Part shown: piece after piece, positions 1,279 through 58,499 of the stretch
Layout of the letters: each line of letters starts with the position of its first letter
Numbering within the stretch: the stretch's first letter is position 1
Assembly (NCBI RefSeq): GCF_900116145.1
Contig: NZ_FPAB01000005.1
Span: 372,001-436,000, forward strand
DNA length: 64,000 nt
Direction: 5' to 3'
Source: Streptomyces harbinensis
GTDB lineage: Bacteria; Actinomycetota; Actinomycetes; Streptomycetales; Streptomycetaceae
Made by a program: the position numbers and the translations under genes
Notes under the pieces: model-generated
Told to the model about the DNA's origin: nothing
Seen by the model: only the letters and a program-made list of their open reading frames with translations
Databases searched by the model: none

Positions 1279-2769
1279 ATGACCGAGCCCGCACCGCCGA
1301 CGCCGTCGTCGGCCCCGACCGCCCCCGCCGTCCCGGCCGTTCCCGCCGCCTCCGCGCCCCCCGCCGCCCCGCCCGCCGCACCACCGGGCGGGGGAGTGCT
1401 CAGCGGACCGTACCGGGCGCTCACCCTCGGCTGCGTGAGCACCATCCTGCTCATCGCCTTCGAGGCCATGGCCATCGGCACCGCCATGCCGGCCGCCGCC
1501 GACGCGCTGGACGGCGTCGCGCTGTACGCCTTCGCCTTCTCCGCCTACTTCACCACCTCGCTCCTCGGCATGGTCCTCGCCGGCCAGTGGTGCGACCGCG
1601 GCGGACCGGTCGGCCCGGTCGTCACCGGGATCGGCGTCTTCTCCGCCGGACTGCTGCTGTCCGGCGCCGCCCAGAACATGCTCACCTTCGTCGCCGGCCG
1701 CGCCGCCCAGGGCGCCGGCGGCGGGCTCGTGATCGTCGCGCTGTACGTCGTGGTCCGGCGCGTCTACCCCGAGCGGCTGCGCCCGGCCGCGCTCGCCGCC
1801 TTCTCCGCCGCCTGGGTGGTGCCCTCGCTCCTCGGCCCGGTCATCGCCGGAGTGGTCACCGAACACTTCGGCTGGCGCTGGGTGTTCCTCGGCATCACCG
1901 TGCTCGTCGTGCTGCCGCTGGCCATCATGCTGCCGCCGCTGCGCCGCAGCGCCTCGGGACCGCCCGCCGAGGGCGCGAAGAAGTTCGACGCCCGCATGCT
2001 GCGGCTGGCCGCCGCCGTCGCGCTCGGCGCCGGGCTGCTCCAGTTCGGCGGGCAGGAACTGCGCTGGCTCTCGGCCGTCCCGATCGCCGCCGGGATCGCC
2101 CTGGCGGCGCCCGCCGCGCTGCGGCTGCTGCCCGCCGGTACCTTCCGCGCCGCCCGGGGACTGCCGTCCGTCATCATGCTGCGCGGCCTCATCTCCGGCG
2201 CGTTCATGACCACCCAGACGTTCCTGCCGCTGATGCTGGTGACCGAACGCGGCCTGTCCATCACCCAGGCCGGGCTCGCCCTCGCCGTCGGCGGCGCCGT
2301 GTGGGCGCTGGGCTCCTACGCCCAGTCCCGCCCCCGCCTCGAGCCGCACCGCTATCTGCTGGTGCGGGTCAGCACCGTGCTGATCCTGTTCGCCGTGCTC
2401 GCCACCCCGCTCGTCCTCATCGAGGCCGTGCCGGTCTGGACGCCCGCCCTCACCCTCGCCATCGGCTGCGTCGGCATGGGCTACACCGTCTCCTCGGTCG
2501 GCGTGCTGGTGCTGCGGCTCTCCCGCCCCGAGGAGGCCGGCGGAAACGTGGCCTCGCTCCAGGTGTGTGACGCGCTGTCGAATGTGGTGATGCTCACGGC
2601 CGTCGGCAGCGCCTTCGCCGCGCTCGGCGGCAGCACCACCGCCGTCGAAGGCGCCTCCGCGGTGGGCCCCGGGGCCTTCGTGGTGGTGTACGCGGCGGCG
2701 GCCGTGGTCGCCGTCCTGGCCGTGCTGACCGCCGGACGAGTGGCGACAAAGGAGGACATGACGCACTGA
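1279..2769 (+). CDS. MFS transporter, drug:H+ antiporter type
   Basis: A 496-residue integral membrane protein. After a Pro/Ala-rich N-terminus of about 50 residues, hydrophobic segments run to the C-terminus. Two MFS signatures are visible: loop 2-3 motif A (WCDRGGPVGPVV) and a TM5 antiporter motif C-like segment (LLGPVIAGVVTEHFGWRWVF). Motif C is characteristic of drug/proton exporters, and the length fits a 12-14-TM protein. It likely exports a small hydrophobic compound using the proton gradient; the substrate is unknown. The ATG at 1279 has no obvious ribosome site. It follows the glycosyltransferase in the same direction and may be co-regulated with it. Confidence 0.85.
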   Translation: MTEPAPPTPSSAPTAPAVPAVPAASAPPAAPPAAPPGGGVLSGPYRALTLGCVSTILLIAFEAMAIGTAMPAAADALDGVALYAFAFSAYFTTSLLGMVLAGQWCDRGGPVGPVVTGIGVFSAGLLLSGAAQNMLTFVAGRAAQGAGGGLVIVALYVVVRRVYPERLRPAALAAFSAAWVVPSLLGPVIAGVVTEHFGWRWVFLGITVLVVLPLAIMLPPLRRSASGPPAEGAKKFDARMLRLAAAVALGAGLLQFGGQELRWLSAVPIAAGIALAAPAALRLLPAGTFRAARGLPSVIMLRGLISGAFMTTQTFLPLMLVTERGLSITQAGLALAVGGAVWALGSYAQSRPRLEPHRYLLVRVSTVLILFAVLATPLVLIEAVPVWTPALTLAIGCVGMGYTVSSVGVLVLRLSRPEEAGGNVASLQVCDALSNVVMLTAVGSAFAALGGSTTAVEGASAVGPGAFVVVYAAAAVVAVLAVLTAGRVATKEDMTH

Positions 2770-30794: not shown

Positions 30795-31397
30795 ATGCAC
30801 CGTCTCGTCCTCGCCACCCGCAACGCCCACAAGATCACCGAGCTGCGCGCGATCCTCACCGGCGCCGGCCTCGACGTCGAACTCATCGGCGCCGACGCCT
30901 ACCCCGACGTCCCCGACGTCAAGGAAACCGGCGTCACCTTCGCCGAGAACGCGCTGCTCAAGGCGCACGCCCTGGCCCGGGCCACCGGACTGCCCGCCGT
31001 CGCCGACGACTCCGGGCTGTGCGTGGACGTCCTCGGCGGCGCCCCCGGCATCTTCTCCGCCCGCTGGGCCGGCCGGCACGGCGACGACCGAGCCAACCTC
31101 GACCTCCTGCTGGCCCAGCTCGCCGACATCGACGACCCGCACCGCACCGCCCACTTCGCCTGCGCCGCCGCCCTCGCCCTCCCCGACGGCACCGAACGCG
31201 TCGTCGAAGGCCGCCTCACCGGCACCCTGCGCCACACCCCGGCCGGCAGCGGCGGCTTCGGCTACGACCCGATCCTCACCCCCGACGGCGACACCCGCAG
31301 CGTCGCCCAGCTCACCCCCGAGGAGAAGAACGCCATCAGCCACCGCGCCCGCGCCTTCCACGCCCTGGCCCCCGAAGTCGCCGCCCTGCCGGCCTGA
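30795..31397 (+). CDS. rdgB: dITP/XTP pyrophosphatase (RdgB/HAM1)
   Basis: A 200-residue house-cleaning enzyme hydrolysing non-canonical purine NTPs. Family signatures are LATRNAHKITELRAIL, AENALLKAHALA, ADDSGLCVDVLGGAPGIFSARWAG and GGFGYDPI. The ATG at 30795 follows the GH42 stop by 8 bp with no promoter seen, so it may be transcribed from the sugar operon as well as from a distant promoter. It is normally a neighbour of rph, as remembered for Streptomyces. Confidence 0.95.
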   Translation: MHRLVLATRNAHKITELRAILTGAGLDVELIGADAYPDVPDVKETGVTFAENALLKAHALARATGLPAVADDSGLCVDVLGGAPGIFSARWAGRHGDDRANLDLLLAQLADIDDPHRTAHFACAAALALPDGTERVVEGRLTGTLRHTPAGSGGFGYDPILTPDGDTRSVAQLTPEEKNAISHRARAFHALAPEVAALPA

Positions 31398-31473: not shown

Positions 31474-32145
31474 TCACGCCGTACCCGTCAGATACGCTGA
31501 CACCACCACATTCGCCGAATACTCCCGCGCCTGCGGATCGTACGTCCCGCCACAGGTGATCAGCCGCAGCTCCGCCGCCCCCTCGCGGCGCGGCCCGTAC
31601 ACCCGGTCCGCGTCGAACTCCGAGCGCTCCACCACCTCGGTCCCGCTCACCGTGAACGCCGCCACCGAGCCGTCGTCCCGCACCACCCGCACCGCGTCCC
31701 CCGGCTCCACCGACCCCAGCGCATGGAACACCGCCCGGTCCGTCTCGGTGTCCACATGCCCCACCAGCACCGCCGCCCCCTCCGCACCCGGCGCCGGAGA
31801 ACCCGCGTACCAGCCCACCAGATCCGGCTCACTGAACGGCGGCGGCGCCACCCCGCCACTGCCGTCCACCCCGCGCGCCATGATGTCCGCCCGCACCCCG
31901 ATCGCCTCGATCTCCAGCACCGCCGGATCCACCCCGCCCGCCAGCGGCTCCGCCGCCGGCGGCAGCGCCCCGCGCGCCCCCGCCGCCTGCGCGGCCTGCG
32001 CCGCACCCGGCGCCGCGCCCGGCAGCCACCCCGCGCCCTCCGTCAGCTGACGCCCCCACAGCCACAGCCCCGTCAGCAGCAGCGCCCACGCCACGCACGA
32101 GATCAGCCGGCCGGTGCCCGAAGCACGCGGCTCGTCCTCCATCAC
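31474..32145 (-). CDS. Class F (E/F) sortase
   Basis: A 223-residue (222 from the ATG) membrane-anchored transpeptidase. One N-terminal span (ISCVAWALLLTGLWLWG) is followed by a linker and the catalytic domain with His in VLVGHVDT, Cys in LITCGGTYD, and a C-terminal Arg in AREYSANVVV. Sortases attach surface proteins to the wall or assemble pili; class F substrates are poorly defined. The GTG at 32145 and ATG at 32142 are adjacent (GTGATG), and the upstream gene's stop overlaps them, so translation is coupled. The upstream neighbour may be a partner or substrate. Confidence 0.9.
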   Translation of the reverse strand: MMEDEPRASGTGRLISCVAWALLLTGLWLWGRQLTEGAGWLPGAAPGAAQAAQAAGARGALPPAAEPLAGGVDPAVLEIEAIGVRADIMARGVDGSGGVAPPPFSEPDLVGWYAGSPAPGAEGAAVLVGHVDTETDRAVFHALGSVEPGDAVRVVRDDGSVAAFTVSGTEVVERSEFDADRVYGPRREGAAELRLITCGGTYDPQAREYSANVVVSAYLTGTA

Positions 32146-32822
32146 CTCTCCCGGGACCGCAGCCGCCGCACCGTCAGCCCGGCCGCCGCCGCCAGCACCC
32201 CCGACAGCACCGTCAGCGCCGTCGGCACCCCCGGCACCCGCTCCTCGCGCTCACCGGCCACCGGCTCGGCGCCCGCCGTACCGCCGCCACCCGCCCGCAC
32301 CGGAGCGGAGGGCCGCGCCGGCAGCGAAGGCGCCGCCTCCCGCTCGTGCTCGCGCCCCTGCTCGTGCTCGCGTTCGTGCTCCGTGCCGTGCTCCGCGCCC
32401 GGCTCCTTGCCGTGCTCCGCCCCCGGCTCCTTGTCGTGCCCGCGCCCACCGCCGTCCGCCACGACCTTCACCTGACCCGACACCGCCCGGTCCTCGCCGT
32501 CGCACGACACATCCACCGGATACGCGCCCGGCTCCACCGTCGAACTGATCCGCGCCTCGCCGAACAGCCCGCCCTCCGCCGACGGCGCCAGCACCGCCTC
32601 CGCGACGAACGCCTCCGAATGCGCGGTACCGCTCGCCCCCCGGCACCCCGTCACCCGCAGCACCACCTCCTCGCCCGGCCGCGGCCCGGACGGCGAGACC
32701 CGCACCTCCCCCTGCTCCCGCTCCCCGCCGGCCGCGAACGCCGCACCGGCCGGCACCGGCACCACGGCCAGCGACAACGCCAACGTGCACAAGGTGAGCC
32801 CGGCGGGCCTGACGATGCTCAT
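32142..32822 (-). CDS. Secreted Glu/His-rich surface protein, sortase partner
   Basis: A 226-residue protein. The signal peptide ends near AGAAFAAGG. A beta-sandwich-like domain (about 35-115) has two cysteines (RVTGCRGAS; VDVSCDGED) likely to pair. Next comes a charged linker of repeated EH units (AEHGKEPGAEHGTEHEREHE), about 120-155. A C-terminal hydrophobic span (VLTVLSGVLAAAAGL) with Arg-rich tail (RRLRSRER) ends it. No LPXTG or LAXTG motif is seen before the span. It is coupled to the sortase gene. The His/Glu-rich segment could bind metal. Family unnamed to me. Confidence 0.75.
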   Translation of the reverse strand: MSIVRPAGLTLCTLALSLAVVPVPAGAAFAAGGEREQGEVRVSPSGPRPGEEVVLRVTGCRGASGTAHSEAFVAEAVLAPSAEGGLFGEARISSTVEPGAYPVDVSCDGEDRAVSGQVKVVADGGGRGHDKEPGAEHGKEPGAEHGTEHEREHEQGREHEREAAPSLPARPSAPVRAGGGGTAGAEPVAGEREERVPGVPTALTVLSGVLAAAAGLTVRRLRSRER

Positions 32823-32954
32823 GGCACAACCTCCGGATCGATCCCTTCCGAAGGTCACCCGCCCGCCGCGCCGCCGCACCCCGGGAGCCGCCCGCGTTAC
32901 GCCATCGGGTGACGCGAATCCCCCGTTCGCGTCACCCGGAGAACGCCCCGCCCC

Positions 32955-33734
32955 TCAGACCCGGTCCACCAGATCCGCGATTGAATCCACCACCTTGGAC
33001 GGCCGGAACGGATACCGGTCGATGTCCTCCGGCCGGGTCAGCCCCGTCAGCACCAGGAACGTCTCCATCCCCGCCTCCAGACCCGCCAGCACATCGGTGT
33101 CCATCCGGTCACCGATCATCGCGCTCGTCTCCGAATGCGCGCCGATCTCGTTCAGCCCCGCCCGCATCATCAGCGGATTCGGCTTCCCCACGAAGTACGG
33201 ATCACGCCCCGTCGCCTTCGTGATCAGCGCCGCCACCGAACCCGTCGCCGGCAGCGCCCCCTCCGTGGAGGGACCCGTGTGATCCGGGTTCGTCGCGATG
33301 AACCGTGCCCCGTCGTTGATCAGCCGGATCGCCTTCGTCAGCGACTCGAAGCTGTAGGTACGCGTCTCACCCAGCACCACGTAATCCGGCGCCGCGTCAC
33401 TGAGCACATAGCCCACATCGTGCAGCGCCGTCGTCAGCCCCGCCTCACCGATCACGTACGCGCTGCCGCCCGGCCGCTGCTCCGCCAGGAACTGCGCCGT
33501 CGCCAGCGCCGAGGTCCAGATGCTCTCCACCGGCACGTCAAGCCCCATCCGGGACAGCCGCGCGTGCAGATCCCGCCGGGTGTAGATCGAGTTGTTCGTC
33601 AGCACCAGGAACGGCCGGCCCGACTCCCGCAGCCGCTTCAGAAAACGGTCCGCGCCCGGGATCGGCACCCCCTCATGGATGAGCACCCCATCCATGTCCG
33701 TCAGCCACGACTCGATCGGCTTGCGCTCAGTCAC
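32955..33734 (-). CDS. HAD-IIA (NagD-like) sugar phosphatase
   Basis: A 259-residue HAD phosphatase. Motif I is WLTDMDGVL, motif II TNNSI, motif III Lys in YFVGKPNP, and motif IV GDRMDTDVLAGL. The cap matches the NagD/PNPase branch, so it dephosphorylates small phosphorylated metabolites. The GTG at 33734 overlaps the bcp stop by 8 bp; an upstream in-frame ATG at 33770 lies within bcp and adds a Trp/Arg-rich extension. It forms an operon with bcp. Confidence 0.9.
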   Translation of the reverse strand: MTERKPIESWLTDMDGVLIHEGVPIPGADRFLKRLRESGRPFLVLTNNSIYTRRDLHARLSRMGLDVPVESIWTSALATAQFLAEQRPGGSAYVIGEAGLTTALHDVGYVLSDAAPDYVVLGETRTYSFESLTKAIRLINDGARFIATNPDHTGPSTEGALPATGSVAALITKATGRDPYFVGKPNPLMMRAGLNEIGAHSETSAMIGDRMDTDVLAGLEAGMETFLVLTGLTRPEDIDRYPFRPSKVVDSIADLVDRV

Positions 33735-34221
33735 CCTGCTCGCCTCCCGCCGGCGCCAGTTCCAGATCACGGATCAGCTTCGCCACGTGCCCGGTCGCCT
33801 TCACGTTGTACAGCGCCCGCTCGACCTTGCCGTCCTCCCCGACGATCACCGTCGAACGGATGACACCGGTCACCGTCTTCCCGTACAGCTTCTTCTCCCC
33901 GAACGCCCCGTACGCACTCAGCACCGCCTTGTCCGGGTCGCTCAGCAGGGTGATCCCCAGGCTCTCCTTCTCCCGGAACTTCGCCAGCTTCTCCGGCTTG
34001 TCCGGCGAGATCCCGATGACGTCGTACCCCGCCCCGGCCAGCAGCTGGAGATTGTCGGTGAAGTCGCACGCCTGCTTGGTGCAGCCCGGGGTCAGCGCCG
34101 CCGGGTAGAAGTAGACAATGACCTTGCGCCCGGCACGATCGGCCAGCGACACCCGCTTGCCATCGGCGTCGGGCAGGGAGAAGGCGGGGGCGGGATCCCC
34201 CGGCTGAAGGCGCTCACTCAT
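33727..34221 (-). CDS. bcp: Thiol peroxidase / bacterioferritin comigratory protein
   Basis: A 164-residue AhpC/TSA-family peroxiredoxin. Peroxidatic Cys47 and a resolving Cys52 are in TPGCTKQACDF, the atypical 2-Cys arrangement of Bcp. It reduces hydrogen peroxide and organic hydroperoxides using thioredoxin. The ATG at 34221 follows GTGAGGATCC. A TAGGCT hexamer on the minus strand (34264-34269) may be its -10. Confidence 0.94.
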   Translation of the reverse strand: MSERLQPGDPAPAFSLPDADGKRVSLADRAGRKVIVYFYPAALTPGCTKQACDFTDNLQLLAGAGYDVIGISPDKPEKLAKFREKESLGITLLSDPDKAVLSAYGAFGEKKLYGKTVTGVIRSTVIVGEDGKVERALYNVKATGHVAKLIRDLELAPAGGEQGD

Positions 34222-40054: not shown

Positions 40055-40124
40055 CCGGCGTAACCGGCGCCCGCCGCGCTCGTTGATCCGTGCGAGAGGA
40101 CGACAGACGATCGAGGGGGCGCGC

Positions 40125-40757
40125 ATGGCCGGTCCGTACACCCGCGAACGACTCGCCGAGGCGGCGGCGGGCGCGGCGACCCTGACCGAGGCGATCGCCG
40201 CGCTCGGCGCCGACCCCCACAGCCCGACACGGCGCTACCTGCGGGAACGGATGCGGGCGCTGGGCATCGACACCGCGCACTTCACCCCGGAGAACCGGCG
40301 CTGGAACCCGGAGCAACTGACCGAGGCGGTCGCGGCCGCACGGAACATGGGCGAGGTACTCGACCGCCTCGGCGTCCCACGGGCGGGCGGCCGGCACACC
40401 CACCTCAGCCGCCGGATCCGCGAACTGGGGATCGACACCTCGCACTTCACCGGGCGGGCGGGCGATCCGCCGCGCCGCGCCCGGCGCACGCCGGCGGAGA
40501 TCCTCGTCCGTCAGGATCCCGGTGCTGGGCGGATCCCCGGGGCACGGCTCCGCCGGGCCATGCTGCGCGCCGGTATCGAGGACCGCTGTTCCGGCTGCGG
40601 CATCCCGCCGGTCTGGCGGGGGCAGCCGCTCCCGCTGGAGGTGGATCACCGGGACGGCGACCGGAACAACAACCGTCCGGAGAATCTCCGGCTGCTGTGC
40701 CCGAACTGCCATGCGGCGACCGACACCTACCGGGGCAGGGGCAAGCGGACGCGATGA
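40125..40757 (+). CDS. HNH-domain protein with two N-terminal GIDTxHF modules (copy 1)
   Basis: A 210-residue protein. Two helical modules of about 45-60 residues each end in the same signature: GIDTAHF (about 47) and GIDTSHF (about 110). The C-terminal HNH nuclease domain has zinc-binding CSGCG and CPNCH pairs around LEVDHRDGDRNNNRPENLRLL. The modules look like small DNA-binding helix bundles. The ATG at 40125 has a GAGGGGG ribosome site. It overlaps copy 2 by 4 bp (ATGA). Whether it is a homing-type, defence or regulatory nuclease cannot be told. Confidence 0.88.
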   Translation: MAGPYTRERLAEAAAGAATLTEAIAALGADPHSPTRRYLRERMRALGIDTAHFTPENRRWNPEQLTEAVAAARNMGEVLDRLGVPRAGGRHTHLSRRIRELGIDTSHFTGRAGDPPRRARRTPAEILVRQDPGAGRIPGARLRRAMLRAGIEDRCSGCGIPPVWRGQPLPLEVDHRDGDRNNNRPENLRLLCPNCHAATDTYRGRGKRTR

Positions 40758-41452
40758 CCGGGAAGAGGTACTCACGGGAACTGCTCGCCGAGGCGGCCCG
40801 ACGCTGTTCCGGCCTGGATGAGGTGATCGCCTTCCTGGAGGTGCGGCCCTATCCGAATCTGCGGCCGTATCTGCTGCGCCGCTTCGCCCACTTCGGCATC
40901 GATGTGACGCATTTCCCGCCCGGCGACGGCCGTCGCCGGGCGCGCCGCCCGGAGCCCACGCCGGTCGACTGGGTGGAAGCCGTCCGCGCGTCGCAGTCCA
41001 TCGCCGCCGCTCTCAGAAGACTGGGGCTGCCCGACACCACCGCCTCACGGGCCCGGTTCCGCGCGGCGGTCGCCGAACTCGGGTGCGATACCTCGCACTT
41101 CCTGGGCCAGGCGCATCAACGGGGGAAGCCGAGCCCCCGTGCGCGGACCGCCGAGGCCATCCTGGTCGAGCGACCCGGTGAGCGGCGTACGAAAACCCAT
41201 CTGCTGCGCCGTGCGCTCGCGGAGATCGGCCGGCCCGAGCAGTGCGCCGGCTGCGGAACGGGCCCGCGCTGGCACGGCAGGCCGATGACCCTGGAAGTGG
41301 ACCACATCAACGGGAACTGGACCGACGACCGGGCAGCGAACCTCCGGCTGCTGTGCCCGAACTGCCATGCGATCACCCGCACCTGGTGTCGCGGCGGACG
41401 GCCGGGGCGCCAGGGGAATGAGAAGCCGCCCACGGCATCCCGGGGCGGGTGA
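40754..41452 (+). CDS. HNH-domain protein with two N-terminal modules (copy 2)
   Basis: A 232-residue paralogue of the preceding gene with the same plan: modules ending GIDVTHF and GCDTSHF, then an HNH domain (CAGCG; LEVDHINGNWTDDRAANLRLLCPNCHA). The two copies have diverged strongly in the modules, while the HNH core is well kept, suggesting different DNA targets. Translational coupling to copy 1 suggests joint function or heterodimerisation. A tRNA with a UAG anticodon lies 107 bp downstream. Confidence 0.88.
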   Translation: MTGKRYSRELLAEAARRCSGLDEVIAFLEVRPYPNLRPYLLRRFAHFGIDVTHFPPGDGRRRARRPEPTPVDWVEAVRASQSIAAALRRLGLPDTTASRARFRAAVAELGCDTSHFLGQAHQRGKPSPRARTAEAILVERPGERRTKTHLLRRALAEIGRPEQCAGCGTGPRWHGRPMTLEVDHINGNWTDDRAANLRLLCPNCHAITRTWCRGGRPGRQGNEKPPTASRGG

Positions 41453-41559
41453 CCTGCGCTTCCGCCATGCTCCGGCTCGCACGGACAGTTCCGGCCGGGC
41501 AATCCGCGTACCCCCTGGCCGGAGCTCCGTGCTGGACACTGTCTGTAGGATGACGGCGC

Positions 41560-41634
41560 GGGTCCGTACCCCAGCTGGCCAGAGGGCGCCGGTTTAGGTC
41601 CGGTGTGTCGTGGGTTCGAGTCCCACCGGGCCCA
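41560..41634 (+). tRNA. tRNA with UAG anticodon but short (class I) variable loop
   Basis: Complete cloverleaf: acceptor GGGTCCG/CGGGCCC (one T-G pair), T8, D-arm with three canonical pairs and GG in the loop, anticodon stem GCCGG/CCGGT (one G-T pair), loop TTTAGGT giving anticodon TAG (41595-41597), G37, five-nt variable loop GTGTC, T-arm GTGGG/CCCAC with loop TTCGAGT, and A73. CC follows but the final A is not encoded. The anticodon reads CUA (Leu), yet bacterial tRNA-Leu normally has a long variable arm. Identity and charging are therefore uncertain. Confidence 0.85.
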
Positions 41635-41768
41635 CCGTGGCAGACGTTCGCGGCCCGGCTCCGTGCGAGCCGGGCCGCCGCCGTGTCCGGGGTCGATCCG
41701 GGCGATGCGGTGATCGGGCCGATAGCGTGTGGGGGTATCGCTTTCCCTGATGTGCTGGAGGAACGACC

Positions 41769-42197
41769 ATGGCAACCACCCGTGTCGCGACAACCCATTG
41801 GGCCGGCTCTCTCATGGAGGGGTCCGGGACCGTCGCGCTGGAGTCCTCGGGGGTCGGGACGTTCGACGTCAACTGGCCCTCGCGGGCCGAGACGCCGAAC
41901 GGGCGGACCTCTCCGGAGGAGCTGATCGCCGCCGCGCACTCCTCGTGCTTCTCCATGGCGCTCTCGCACGGCCTGGCCGGCGCCGGTACTCCGCCGGAGA
42001 CCGTGGACACCCAGGCGTCCGTCACCTTTCAGCCCGGTGAGGGCATCACCGGCATCGTGCTGAGCGTGAAGGCCCGCGTGCCCGGGCTGTCCGCGGACGG
42101 TTTCCAGGAGGCCGCCCGGGCCGCCAAGGAGAACTGCCCCGTCAGCAAGGCGCTCGCCGGGGTCACCATCACTCTGGAGGCCGAACTGCTCGACTGA
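41769..42197 (+). CDS. osmC: OsmC/Ohr family peroxidase
   Basis: A 142-residue thiol-dependent hydroperoxide reductase. The two catalytic cysteines are Cys60 (AAAHSSCFSMAL) and Cys123 (AKENCPVSKAL), with the peroxide-site Arg39 in PSRAETPNG. The pattern fits OsmC more than Ohr. It detoxifies organic hydroperoxides in the cytoplasm. The ATG at 41769 follows GGAGGAACG. A strong terminator follows. Confidence 0.93.
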   Translation: MATTRVATTHWAGSLMEGSGTVALESSGVGTFDVNWPSRAETPNGRTSPEELIAAAHSSCFSMALSHGLAGAGTPPETVDTQASVTFQPGEGITGIVLSVKARVPGLSADGFQEAARAAKENCPVSKALAGVTITLEAELLD

Positions 42198-58215: not shown

Positions 58216-58224
58216 CCGTGTCGG

Positions 58225-58298
58225 TGCGCCGCCAGGGACTCGAACCCCGGACCCGCTGATTAAGAGTCAGCTGCTCTAACCAACTGAGCTAGCGGCGC
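58225..58298 (-). tRNA. tRNA-Lys(CTT), distal copy
   Basis: 74-nt cloverleaf on the minus strand. Acceptor GCGCCGC/GCGGCGC, D-arm with GCTC/GAGC, anticodon loop CTCTTAA (anticodon CTT), T-arm with TTCGAGT loop, A73. The final CCA is not fully encoded. Confidence 0.97.
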
Positions 58299-58416: not shown

Positions 58417-58425
58417 CCGTGTCGG

Positions 58426-58499
58426 TGCGCCGCCAGGGACTCGAACCCCGGACCCGCTGATTAAGAGTCAGCTGCTCTAACCAACTGAGCTAGCGGCGC
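58426..58499 (-). tRNA. tRNA-Lys(CTT), proximal copy
   Basis: Identical in sequence to the copy at 58225-58298. Its 5' end overlaps the last 10 bp of the upstream minus-strand CDS (stop at 58490). Confidence 0.97.

Follow-up and report, generated by a model that had tools for sequence, protein, structure and literature searches.

A probable chromosomal cassette of two HNH nuclease genes and a substitute tRNA-Leu(UAG) in Streptomyces harbinensis

In synthetic Cleave-and-Rescue gene drives, a nuclease that would destroy a needed gene is accompanied by a recoded, working version of that gene. Among natural systems, the phage gene SegB belongs to the GIY-YIG type. According to two papers, SegB of phages T4 and T6 is a free-standing homing endonuclease linked to tRNA genes, which spreads or amplifies tRNA segments (PMC13096335, PMC6409571). 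In the Mycobacterium mucogenicum clade, HNH-containing tRNA clusters with a short-loop tRNA-Leu(TAG) have been described, and a phage origin was proposed for them (PMC6582537). Here, we analyzed a 64,000-nucleotide (nt) stretch of Streptomyces harbinensis (contig NZ_FPAB01000005.1 of assembly GCF_900116145.1, positions 372,001 to 436,000 of the forward strand; hereafter the window, whose own coordinates are used below), in which two HNH endonuclease genes precede a single tRNA-Leu(UAG) gene with a short variable loop (class I), in place of the long variable arm of canonical class II tRNA-Leu. Sequence comparisons suggest that these genes probably form a chromosomal cassette, in which two nucleases of the free-standing homing type are joined to a substitute, working tRNA-Leu(UAG) that replaces the resident allele.

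What the system has in common with SegB is a free-standing nuclease encoded among tRNA genes, whose action favours, or here would favour, the inheritance or amplification of the tRNA segment by recombination. In contrast to SegB, an HNH family is involved here that is tied to tRNA-Leu and resides in bacterial chromosomes, in the window genome beside its sole UAG tRNA gene, and whole tRNA alleles, even tRNA classes, appear to be exchanged. The mycobacterial clusters likewise have a short-variable-loop tRNA-Leu(TAG) and an HNH gene, but PMC6582537 also describes a tRNA-Leu(TAG) with a normal, larger variable loop, whereas the class I gene of the window is the only UAG tRNA found and stands single behind the HNH genes. 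The resemblance to Cleave-and-Rescue is that of a nuclease joined to a working gene copy, here natural and bacterial, with a proposed cleavage. A literature search, which left subscription papers mostly uncovered, brought up PMC6582537 and the work on SegB as the nearest papers, and none that deals with class I tRNA-Leu of Streptomyces or with a tRNA-Leu-associated HNH family. Within the literature searched, two points appear to be new: an HNH family linked to tRNA-Leu that is shared by phages and bacteria, and the replacement of a chromosomal tRNA gene, the sole CUA decoder found in its genome, by one of the other structural class.

The distal nuclease gene, HNH-A, lies on the forward strand at 40125..40757; its open reading frame (ORF) opens with a TTG at 40083, and the ATG at 40125 is the likely start. 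The tRNA-proximal gene, HNH-B, follows on the same strand at 40754..41452 (ORF open from 40697, likely start ATG 40754), so that its start overlaps the HNH-A stop (ATGA). Another 107 nt separate the end of HNH-B from the tRNA gene at 41560..41634 (+). HNH-A exceeds the Pfam cut-offs for HNH_3 and HNH, and HNH-B falls just under both. The PADLOC homing-endonuclease profile matches the two proteins (E 3.1e-14 and 1.3e-11), and the HNH-region residues are conserved across 45 sequences, which together identify a nuclease domain of the homing type. Beyond this shared HNH domain, no known defence gene was recognized, the PADLOC matches being C-terminal, from residue 153 on. AlphaFold2 predicts for HNH-A two three-helix modules followed by a C-terminal HNH domain (mean predicted local distance difference test score 87.8, predicted template modelling score 0.57). 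A fold search of the PDB gave no match at E 0.001 or better, the weak ones including McrA and I-HmuI, and a sequence search of the PDB returned a single weak match, McrA (E 0.0062).

When HNH-B was searched for in 41 genomes (the window genome and 40 relatives), it was found in 20, and the best locus per genome had a tRNA-Leu(UAG) within a stretch of about 3 kilobases (kb) in 19 of these. The sole locus with no tRNA-Leu(UAG) found in its stretch was L298 (G046:C39). A close blastn match to the window tRNA (E 1e-10 or better) was present in 59 of 392 sampled genomes of the genus. Most of the class I loci first examined adjoin rdgB, and rdgB loci were therefore sampled: with one rdgB protein, itself of a class I genome, as query, the 80 best of 578 matches were taken; they came from Streptomyces, except for three from Kitasatospora and two from Actinacidiphila. 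All 80 contain exactly one tRNA in the stretch, and it is always a tRNA-Leu(UAG): 28 are class I (<80 nt) and 52 are class II (longer). The tRNA is conserved, its conservation across Streptomyces having been among the checks proposed in the preliminary description of this DNA. By eye, each class comprises several unrelated sequence types.

The 80 rdgB loci, 19 other class I loci, and the window were combined into a set of 100 loci, the last 20 having been selected as class I. The identity of the tRNA did not correlate with that of rdgB (Spearman -0.008; 93 of the 100 loci, seven without a parsed rdgB being dropped). For example, L224 and L237 are 95% identical in rdgB and 71% in the tRNA, and L182 and L221 share the same tRNA with rdgB genes 82% identical; random pairs of loci have tRNAs that are on average 73% identical (63 loci). 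HNH similarity was detected within 3 kb upstream of the tRNA at 78 of the 100 loci and an intact proximal HNH gene at 69, its stop lying a median of 15 nt from the tRNA (range -39 to 107). Some of the other loci retain HNH fragments only, and one has no upstream sequence. As a rule, one or two HNH genes directly precede the tRNA.

Alignments of close relatives place the difference between alleles in a block that includes the tRNA. In five sister pairs examined in 50-base steps, identity falls to about 20-60% over the tRNA, while the flanks mostly remain at about 80-100% and rdgB mostly at 80-98%; the HNH genes of these pairs are of lower identity or unalignable. HNH-less loci were also compared with HNH-bearing ones, by pairing 16 of the 22 HNH-less loci with the HNH-bearing locus nearest by rdgB (the six left out comprise two without a parsed rdgB, one at a contig end, and three others). 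Eight of the 16 pairs have rdgB identity >0.9, two of the pairs sharing one HNH locus. In seven of these eight, the site is polymorphic for presence or absence of the HNH genes between conserved flanks: the upstream homology reaches to within 40-285 nt of the tRNA in the HNH-less member and to within 1144-1699 nt in the HNH-bearing member. In six of the seven, the tRNA type differs too (59-76% identical), and homology returns past the tRNA or late in it; in the seventh, L206/L133, both members have one tRNA type, and homology returns at -20. The exception among the eight is L172/L177, whose upstream flanks diverge earlier. In addition, the tRNA allele tracks the proximal HNH gene (Mantel rho 0.22, p 0.001, 63 loci), and nearest neighbours share the tRNA at >=90% in 48% of cases when chosen by HNH versus 22% when chosen by rdgB (same 63 loci). 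In close relatives, the HNH genes and the tRNA seem to be exchanged as a block between conserved flanks, and the block that differs can also consist of the tRNA without HNH genes. The pattern fits a possible co-conversion of flanking sequence.

Between 30 overlapping pairs, selected for similar HNH proteins, the median ratio of nonsynonymous to synonymous divergence (dN/dS) of the proximal HNH gene is 0.19, against 0.16 for rdgB, which indicates purifying selection. The dS of the HNH gene exceeds that of rdgB in all 30 pairs, by 1.1 to 5.7 fold, as is expected if diverged copies are exchanged. With a strict motif, HNH genes accompany class I tRNAs more often than class II tRNAs (24/28 versus 18/52, p 1.5e-5), and so do two HNH genes (23/28 versus 11/52, p 1.9e-7), in loci that are not independent of each other. 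Upstream of the window tRNA, a -10-like TAGGAT lies at 41546..41551 (+), and elements of this TANNNT type accumulate near the same distance in the 100 loci: one is found 9-22 nt upstream of the tRNA at 64 of them, as against 0 in 693 control windows further upstream. Lying near or inside the 3' end of the HNH gene, such an element would keep HNH gene and tRNA together. Scans of 41400-41800 for sigma-70 promoters and terminators gave nothing, and no full sigma-70 consensus site was found there.

The same nuclease family is found beside tRNA-Leu in viruses. A search with HNH-A led to 37 viral loci (22 from IMG/VR and 15 of the 21 matched phage records), and in 24 of them a tRNA lies no more than 120 nt from the best HNH match. 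The nearest tRNA is a tRNA-Leu in 20 of the 24, and three further ones have a tRNA-Leu(UAG) on the other side of the HNH gene. Leucine tRNAs make up 46 of the 288 tRNAs in these viral loci. Of 17 viral lineages, 16 have Leu (binomial p 2.6e-12), the lineages being grouped by hand, with the two loci whose tRNA-Leu lies at 127 and 260 nt included and loci without a near tRNA omitted. Phage tRNA arrays carry proteins of phrog_10822, which is related to the two HNH proteins of the window (E 1.1e-51 and 8.8e-46); in Felix O1-like phages and Pseudomonas Otagovirus, such proteins are encoded directly before a short-loop tRNA-Leu(UAG), as in the window, but within whole tRNA arrays, unlike the one tRNA of the Streptomyces cassette. 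In the Felix O1-like phages examined, the class I tRNA-Leu(UAG) begins one base past the annotated HNH stop. An uncultured huge phage (LR745208, L345) has five tRNA-Leu genes with all five anticodons at 2038-2528 (-), beside an HNH gene on the other strand. Plasmids were considered as carriers as well and were dropped, since a plasmid search with HNH-A gave no match. Two other endonuclease genes in the Felix O1-like arrays (L333 257-766; L335 3262-3753) end just before tRNA-Asp and tRNA-Thr, which leaves room for other isotype-linked nuclease families.

The established part of the case for a cassette consists of this linkage, the block difference, the empty alleles, the selection on the HNH genes, and the phage counterparts. 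As to how it might work, the HNH protein would cut cassette-free tRNA-Leu genes or the borders of such genes, and repair from the cassette would copy the HNH genes and the tRNA together. The resident tRNA would thereby be replaced by a CUA-decoding one without the target, and the cassette's own tRNA would resist cutting through its divergence, with phages as likely carriers. Taken to its full extent, this would be a natural cleave-and-rescue gene drive, in which HNH nucleases with a specialization for tRNA-Leu genes eliminate the resident gene for the CUA-reading tRNA and put their own, differently built class I or class II copy in its place, serially across Streptomyces, with phages as carriers. 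The linked copy that such a drive includes would be the tRNA of the window, the only UAG tRNA in its genome. We put the full drive forward tentatively.

It is important to note that a number of observations weigh against this interpretation. HNH-less loci occur in both tRNA classes (22/100, one of them at a contig end). The link between HNH gene and tRNA is moderate (rho 0.22; 48% versus 22%), and the proximal HNH gene also tracks rdgB weakly (rho 0.13, p 0.013). When HNH genes were scored by tblastn, the difference between class I and class II loci was unclear (25/28 versus 36/52, p 0.056). No target site for the HNH protein was found. In the viruses, Rhodococcus phage Dorin has a tRNA-Phe nearest its HNH gene, and 13 of the 37 loci have no tRNA within 120 nt; of these 13, two have their tRNA-Leu at a greater distance (127 and 260 nt), six have another tRNA further off, and five have no tRNA in the stretch, one of the five giving no HNH match with the seeds used. 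The status of sole CUA decoder was checked fully for the window genome only. A class II probe gave no match in 59 further class I genomes, a result that adds little because only two of six positive controls were recovered. Finally, none of 30 loci of about 3 kb around a class I tRNA-Leu(CAA), all of class I, has an HNH gene beside it, and the class I body thus does not need the cassette.

Ordinary horizontal replacement by homologous recombination at a recombination-prone site could produce diverse alleles as well, with CUA rare, many tRNA designs tolerated, and the HNH genes as hitch-hiking selfish elements that cut something else nearby. CUA is indeed scarce in the ORFs of the 100 loci, at 0.67 per 1000 codons versus 44.8 for CUG (the ORFs were chosen by base composition and may contain false ones). 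Recombination would need no more than the conserved sequence on either side, the HNH-less alleles are diverse too, and the correlation between HNH gene and tRNA is modest. It is harder to see on these grounds why the divergence peaks on the tRNA itself, or why the HNH family adjoins tRNA-Leu, and not random tRNAs, in unrelated phages and bacteria. We therefore regard simple replacement as possible but rather unlikely, and favour the nuclease cassette.

The cassette is also of interest for the kind of tRNA that it carries. ARAGORN predicts a tRNA-Leu(tag) at 41560-41636 (+), and Rfam RF00005 matches 41560-41634 with 45.7 bits (cut-off 29 bits). The anticodon UAG is at 41595-41597, the discriminator is A73, and no CCA is encoded. 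The acceptor stem has 7 base pairs and the D stem 3, with C13.A22 unpaired; the anticodon stem has 5 with the loop U-U-[UAG]-G-U, and the T stem has 5. The variable loop, GUGUC, is 5 nt long, and the gene is accordingly classed as a class I tRNA-Leu and not as the canonical class II form with its long variable arm. With a leucine anticodon, A73, and an intact cloverleaf, it has the features of a tRNA-Leu. The UAG anticodon on a class I body, as put forward in the preliminary description, is therefore confirmed by ARAGORN, by Rfam, and by our own parse.

A non-functional tRNA remnant, or a donor of aminoacyl groups for a non-translational purpose, might be suspected from the low Rfam score, well below that of the two tRNA-Lys genes of the window (68.4 bits). 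These tRNA-Lys(CTT) genes, at 58223-58298 and 58424-58499 (-), lie about 125 bases apart and are the same over the Rfam match. The single-sequence thermodynamic fold is likewise unconvincing: its z is -0.81, 37 of 200 shuffles are equally good, and the D arm is not formed as in a cloverleaf. As this fold is unremarkable, the case for the tRNA rests on comparative support. Among 48 distinct class I UAG sequences (distinct tRNAs were counted on trimmed sequences), A73 is present in all, and fully paired stems are found in 47 (acceptor), 47 (anticodon), and 44 (T). Changes on both sides of a pair were seen in all four stems, for 6 of 7 acceptor, 3 of 3 D, 5 of 5 anticodon, and 4 of 5 T pairs (18 of 20 in total). 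Together with the -10-like element at a fixed distance and the lack of any other UAG tRNA in the genome, this makes a remnant or a donor highly improbable, and nothing observed indicates a known uncharged pseudogene of Streptomyces or a preferred long-arm fold.

The window genome (5.8 Mb, given as 100% complete) yielded 56 tRNA matches in a whole-genome Rfam search, whose anticodons were assigned by ARAGORN for 55 and from the Rfam alignment for one (UCC, without an ARAGORN call). Its leucine tRNAs are class II for CAG, UAA, and, twice, GAG, and class I for CAA and UAG. The tRNA of the cassette is the only UAG tRNA among the 56; no second one, and in particular no class II tRNA-Leu(UAG) elsewhere in the genome, was found by Rfam, blastn, or pattern searches. 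The suggestion of a dedicated CUA decoder in the preliminary description is thus borne out. In agreement, PMC4932002 lists one TAG leucine tRNA gene per genome in six Streptomyces genomes. The second class I tRNA-Leu, with anticodon CAA, lies outside the window at G000:C17:608701-608775 (L070, L120, L251) and is the only CAA tRNA found in the genome; of 199 genomes of the genus, 59 gave blastn matches to it (E 1e-6), with a few of the matches partial.

A class I body on a CUA-reading tRNA brings to mind the mitochondria of yeast, where, according to PMC7609411, a tRNA-Thr(UAG) derived from tRNA-His reassigns CUN. A tRNA charged with another amino acid, with CUA reassigned or ambiguous, would follow that precedent, and the preliminary description had likewise entertained charging by a non-leucyl synthetase. 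For the ORFs of the 100 loci, we examined those CUA positions for which four or more relatives could be aligned. By alignment only, CUA is read as leucine at the class I loci: leucine was the majority residue at 35 of 41 positions, no less often than at class II loci (48/63). The D arm and A73 point in the same direction. In 76 distinct class I tRNA-Leu (48 with UAG, 28 with a different leucine anticodon; viral loci were the only source of 20), A73 and an unpaired 13-22 are universal. The trio C12-G23, C13.A22, and A73 occurs in 68 of the 76, and in none of the 68 class II tRNA-Leu or the 237 non-Leu tRNAs with a short variable loop from the same loci; in class II tRNA-Leu, 13-22 is unpaired in 52 of 68. 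Bacterial leucyl-tRNA synthetase (LeuRS) recognizes A73 and features of the D arm. Given this signature, LeuRS likely charges the class I tRNA-Leu(UAG). The alignments and the D-arm/A73 signature led us to reject another amino acid, for which the odds appear minimal, and the sequences hold no sign of CUA reassignment. An origin from tRNA-His, prompted by the yeast case and by a blastn match (L011), was dropped, since the class I forms resemble phage tRNA-Leu.

As the only UAG tRNA found in its genome, and with CUA still aligned with leucine, the tRNA would most likely be a normal leucine tRNA with a class I body, neither mischarged nor non-translational. We infer that this body is one of several tolerated tRNA-Leu designs. 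Of the preliminary interpretation, the class I body with its UAG anticodon and the CUA decoder stand; the notions of charging by a non-leucyl synthetase and of a non-translational job find no support, and the HNH genes, the swapping of alleles, and the phage counterparts had been overlooked.

Loss of the variable arm could also have a protective role. According to PMC13096335, defence nucleases cut the variable loops of tRNAs, and phage tRNAs resist them. Allele diversity and arm loss might then shield a needed tRNA from toxins or defence nucleases that attack tRNA-Leu, perhaps at the variable arm, with phages carrying the same resistant forms and the HNH genes serving their spread. In Felix O1-like phages (L333, L334, L335), the tRNA-Leu with anticodons UAG, CAA, and UAA all have short variable loops of 5-7 nt, as would be expected. 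Class II alleles are nevertheless still the majority at the rdgB site (52/80), and we consider escape from nucleases improbable as the main explanation. Nucleases that cut variable loops may nonetheless offer a second reason for the loss of the arm.

The window itself departs from the usual arrangement around rdgB. The XTP/dITP pyrophosphatase gene rdgB, the usual neighbour of tRNA-Leu(UAG) in relatives, is at 30795..31385 (+), and the cassette lies about 10 kb away, outside the usual bcp-rdgB interval, with the HNH genes and the tRNA still together. The usual tRNA site between rdgB and bcp (31474-33770) is occupied by other genes, by eye a sortase-like and a HAD-phosphatase-like ORF, and no HNH remnant was found in this interval.

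If our interpretation is correct, a selfish nuclease cassette would overwrite a tRNA gene needed for CUA decoding time and again, so that the inheritance of this gene would differ from that of the genes around it, and the LeuRS of these bacteria would accept tRNAs of both structural classes. The alleles would then provide studies of tRNA identity with leucine tRNAs of class I and class II in a natural series. The HNH genes would represent a nuclease family, open to testing, that is linked to tRNA-Leu in phages and bacteria alike, and the cassette would be a candidate for a natural model of a cleave-and-rescue drive.
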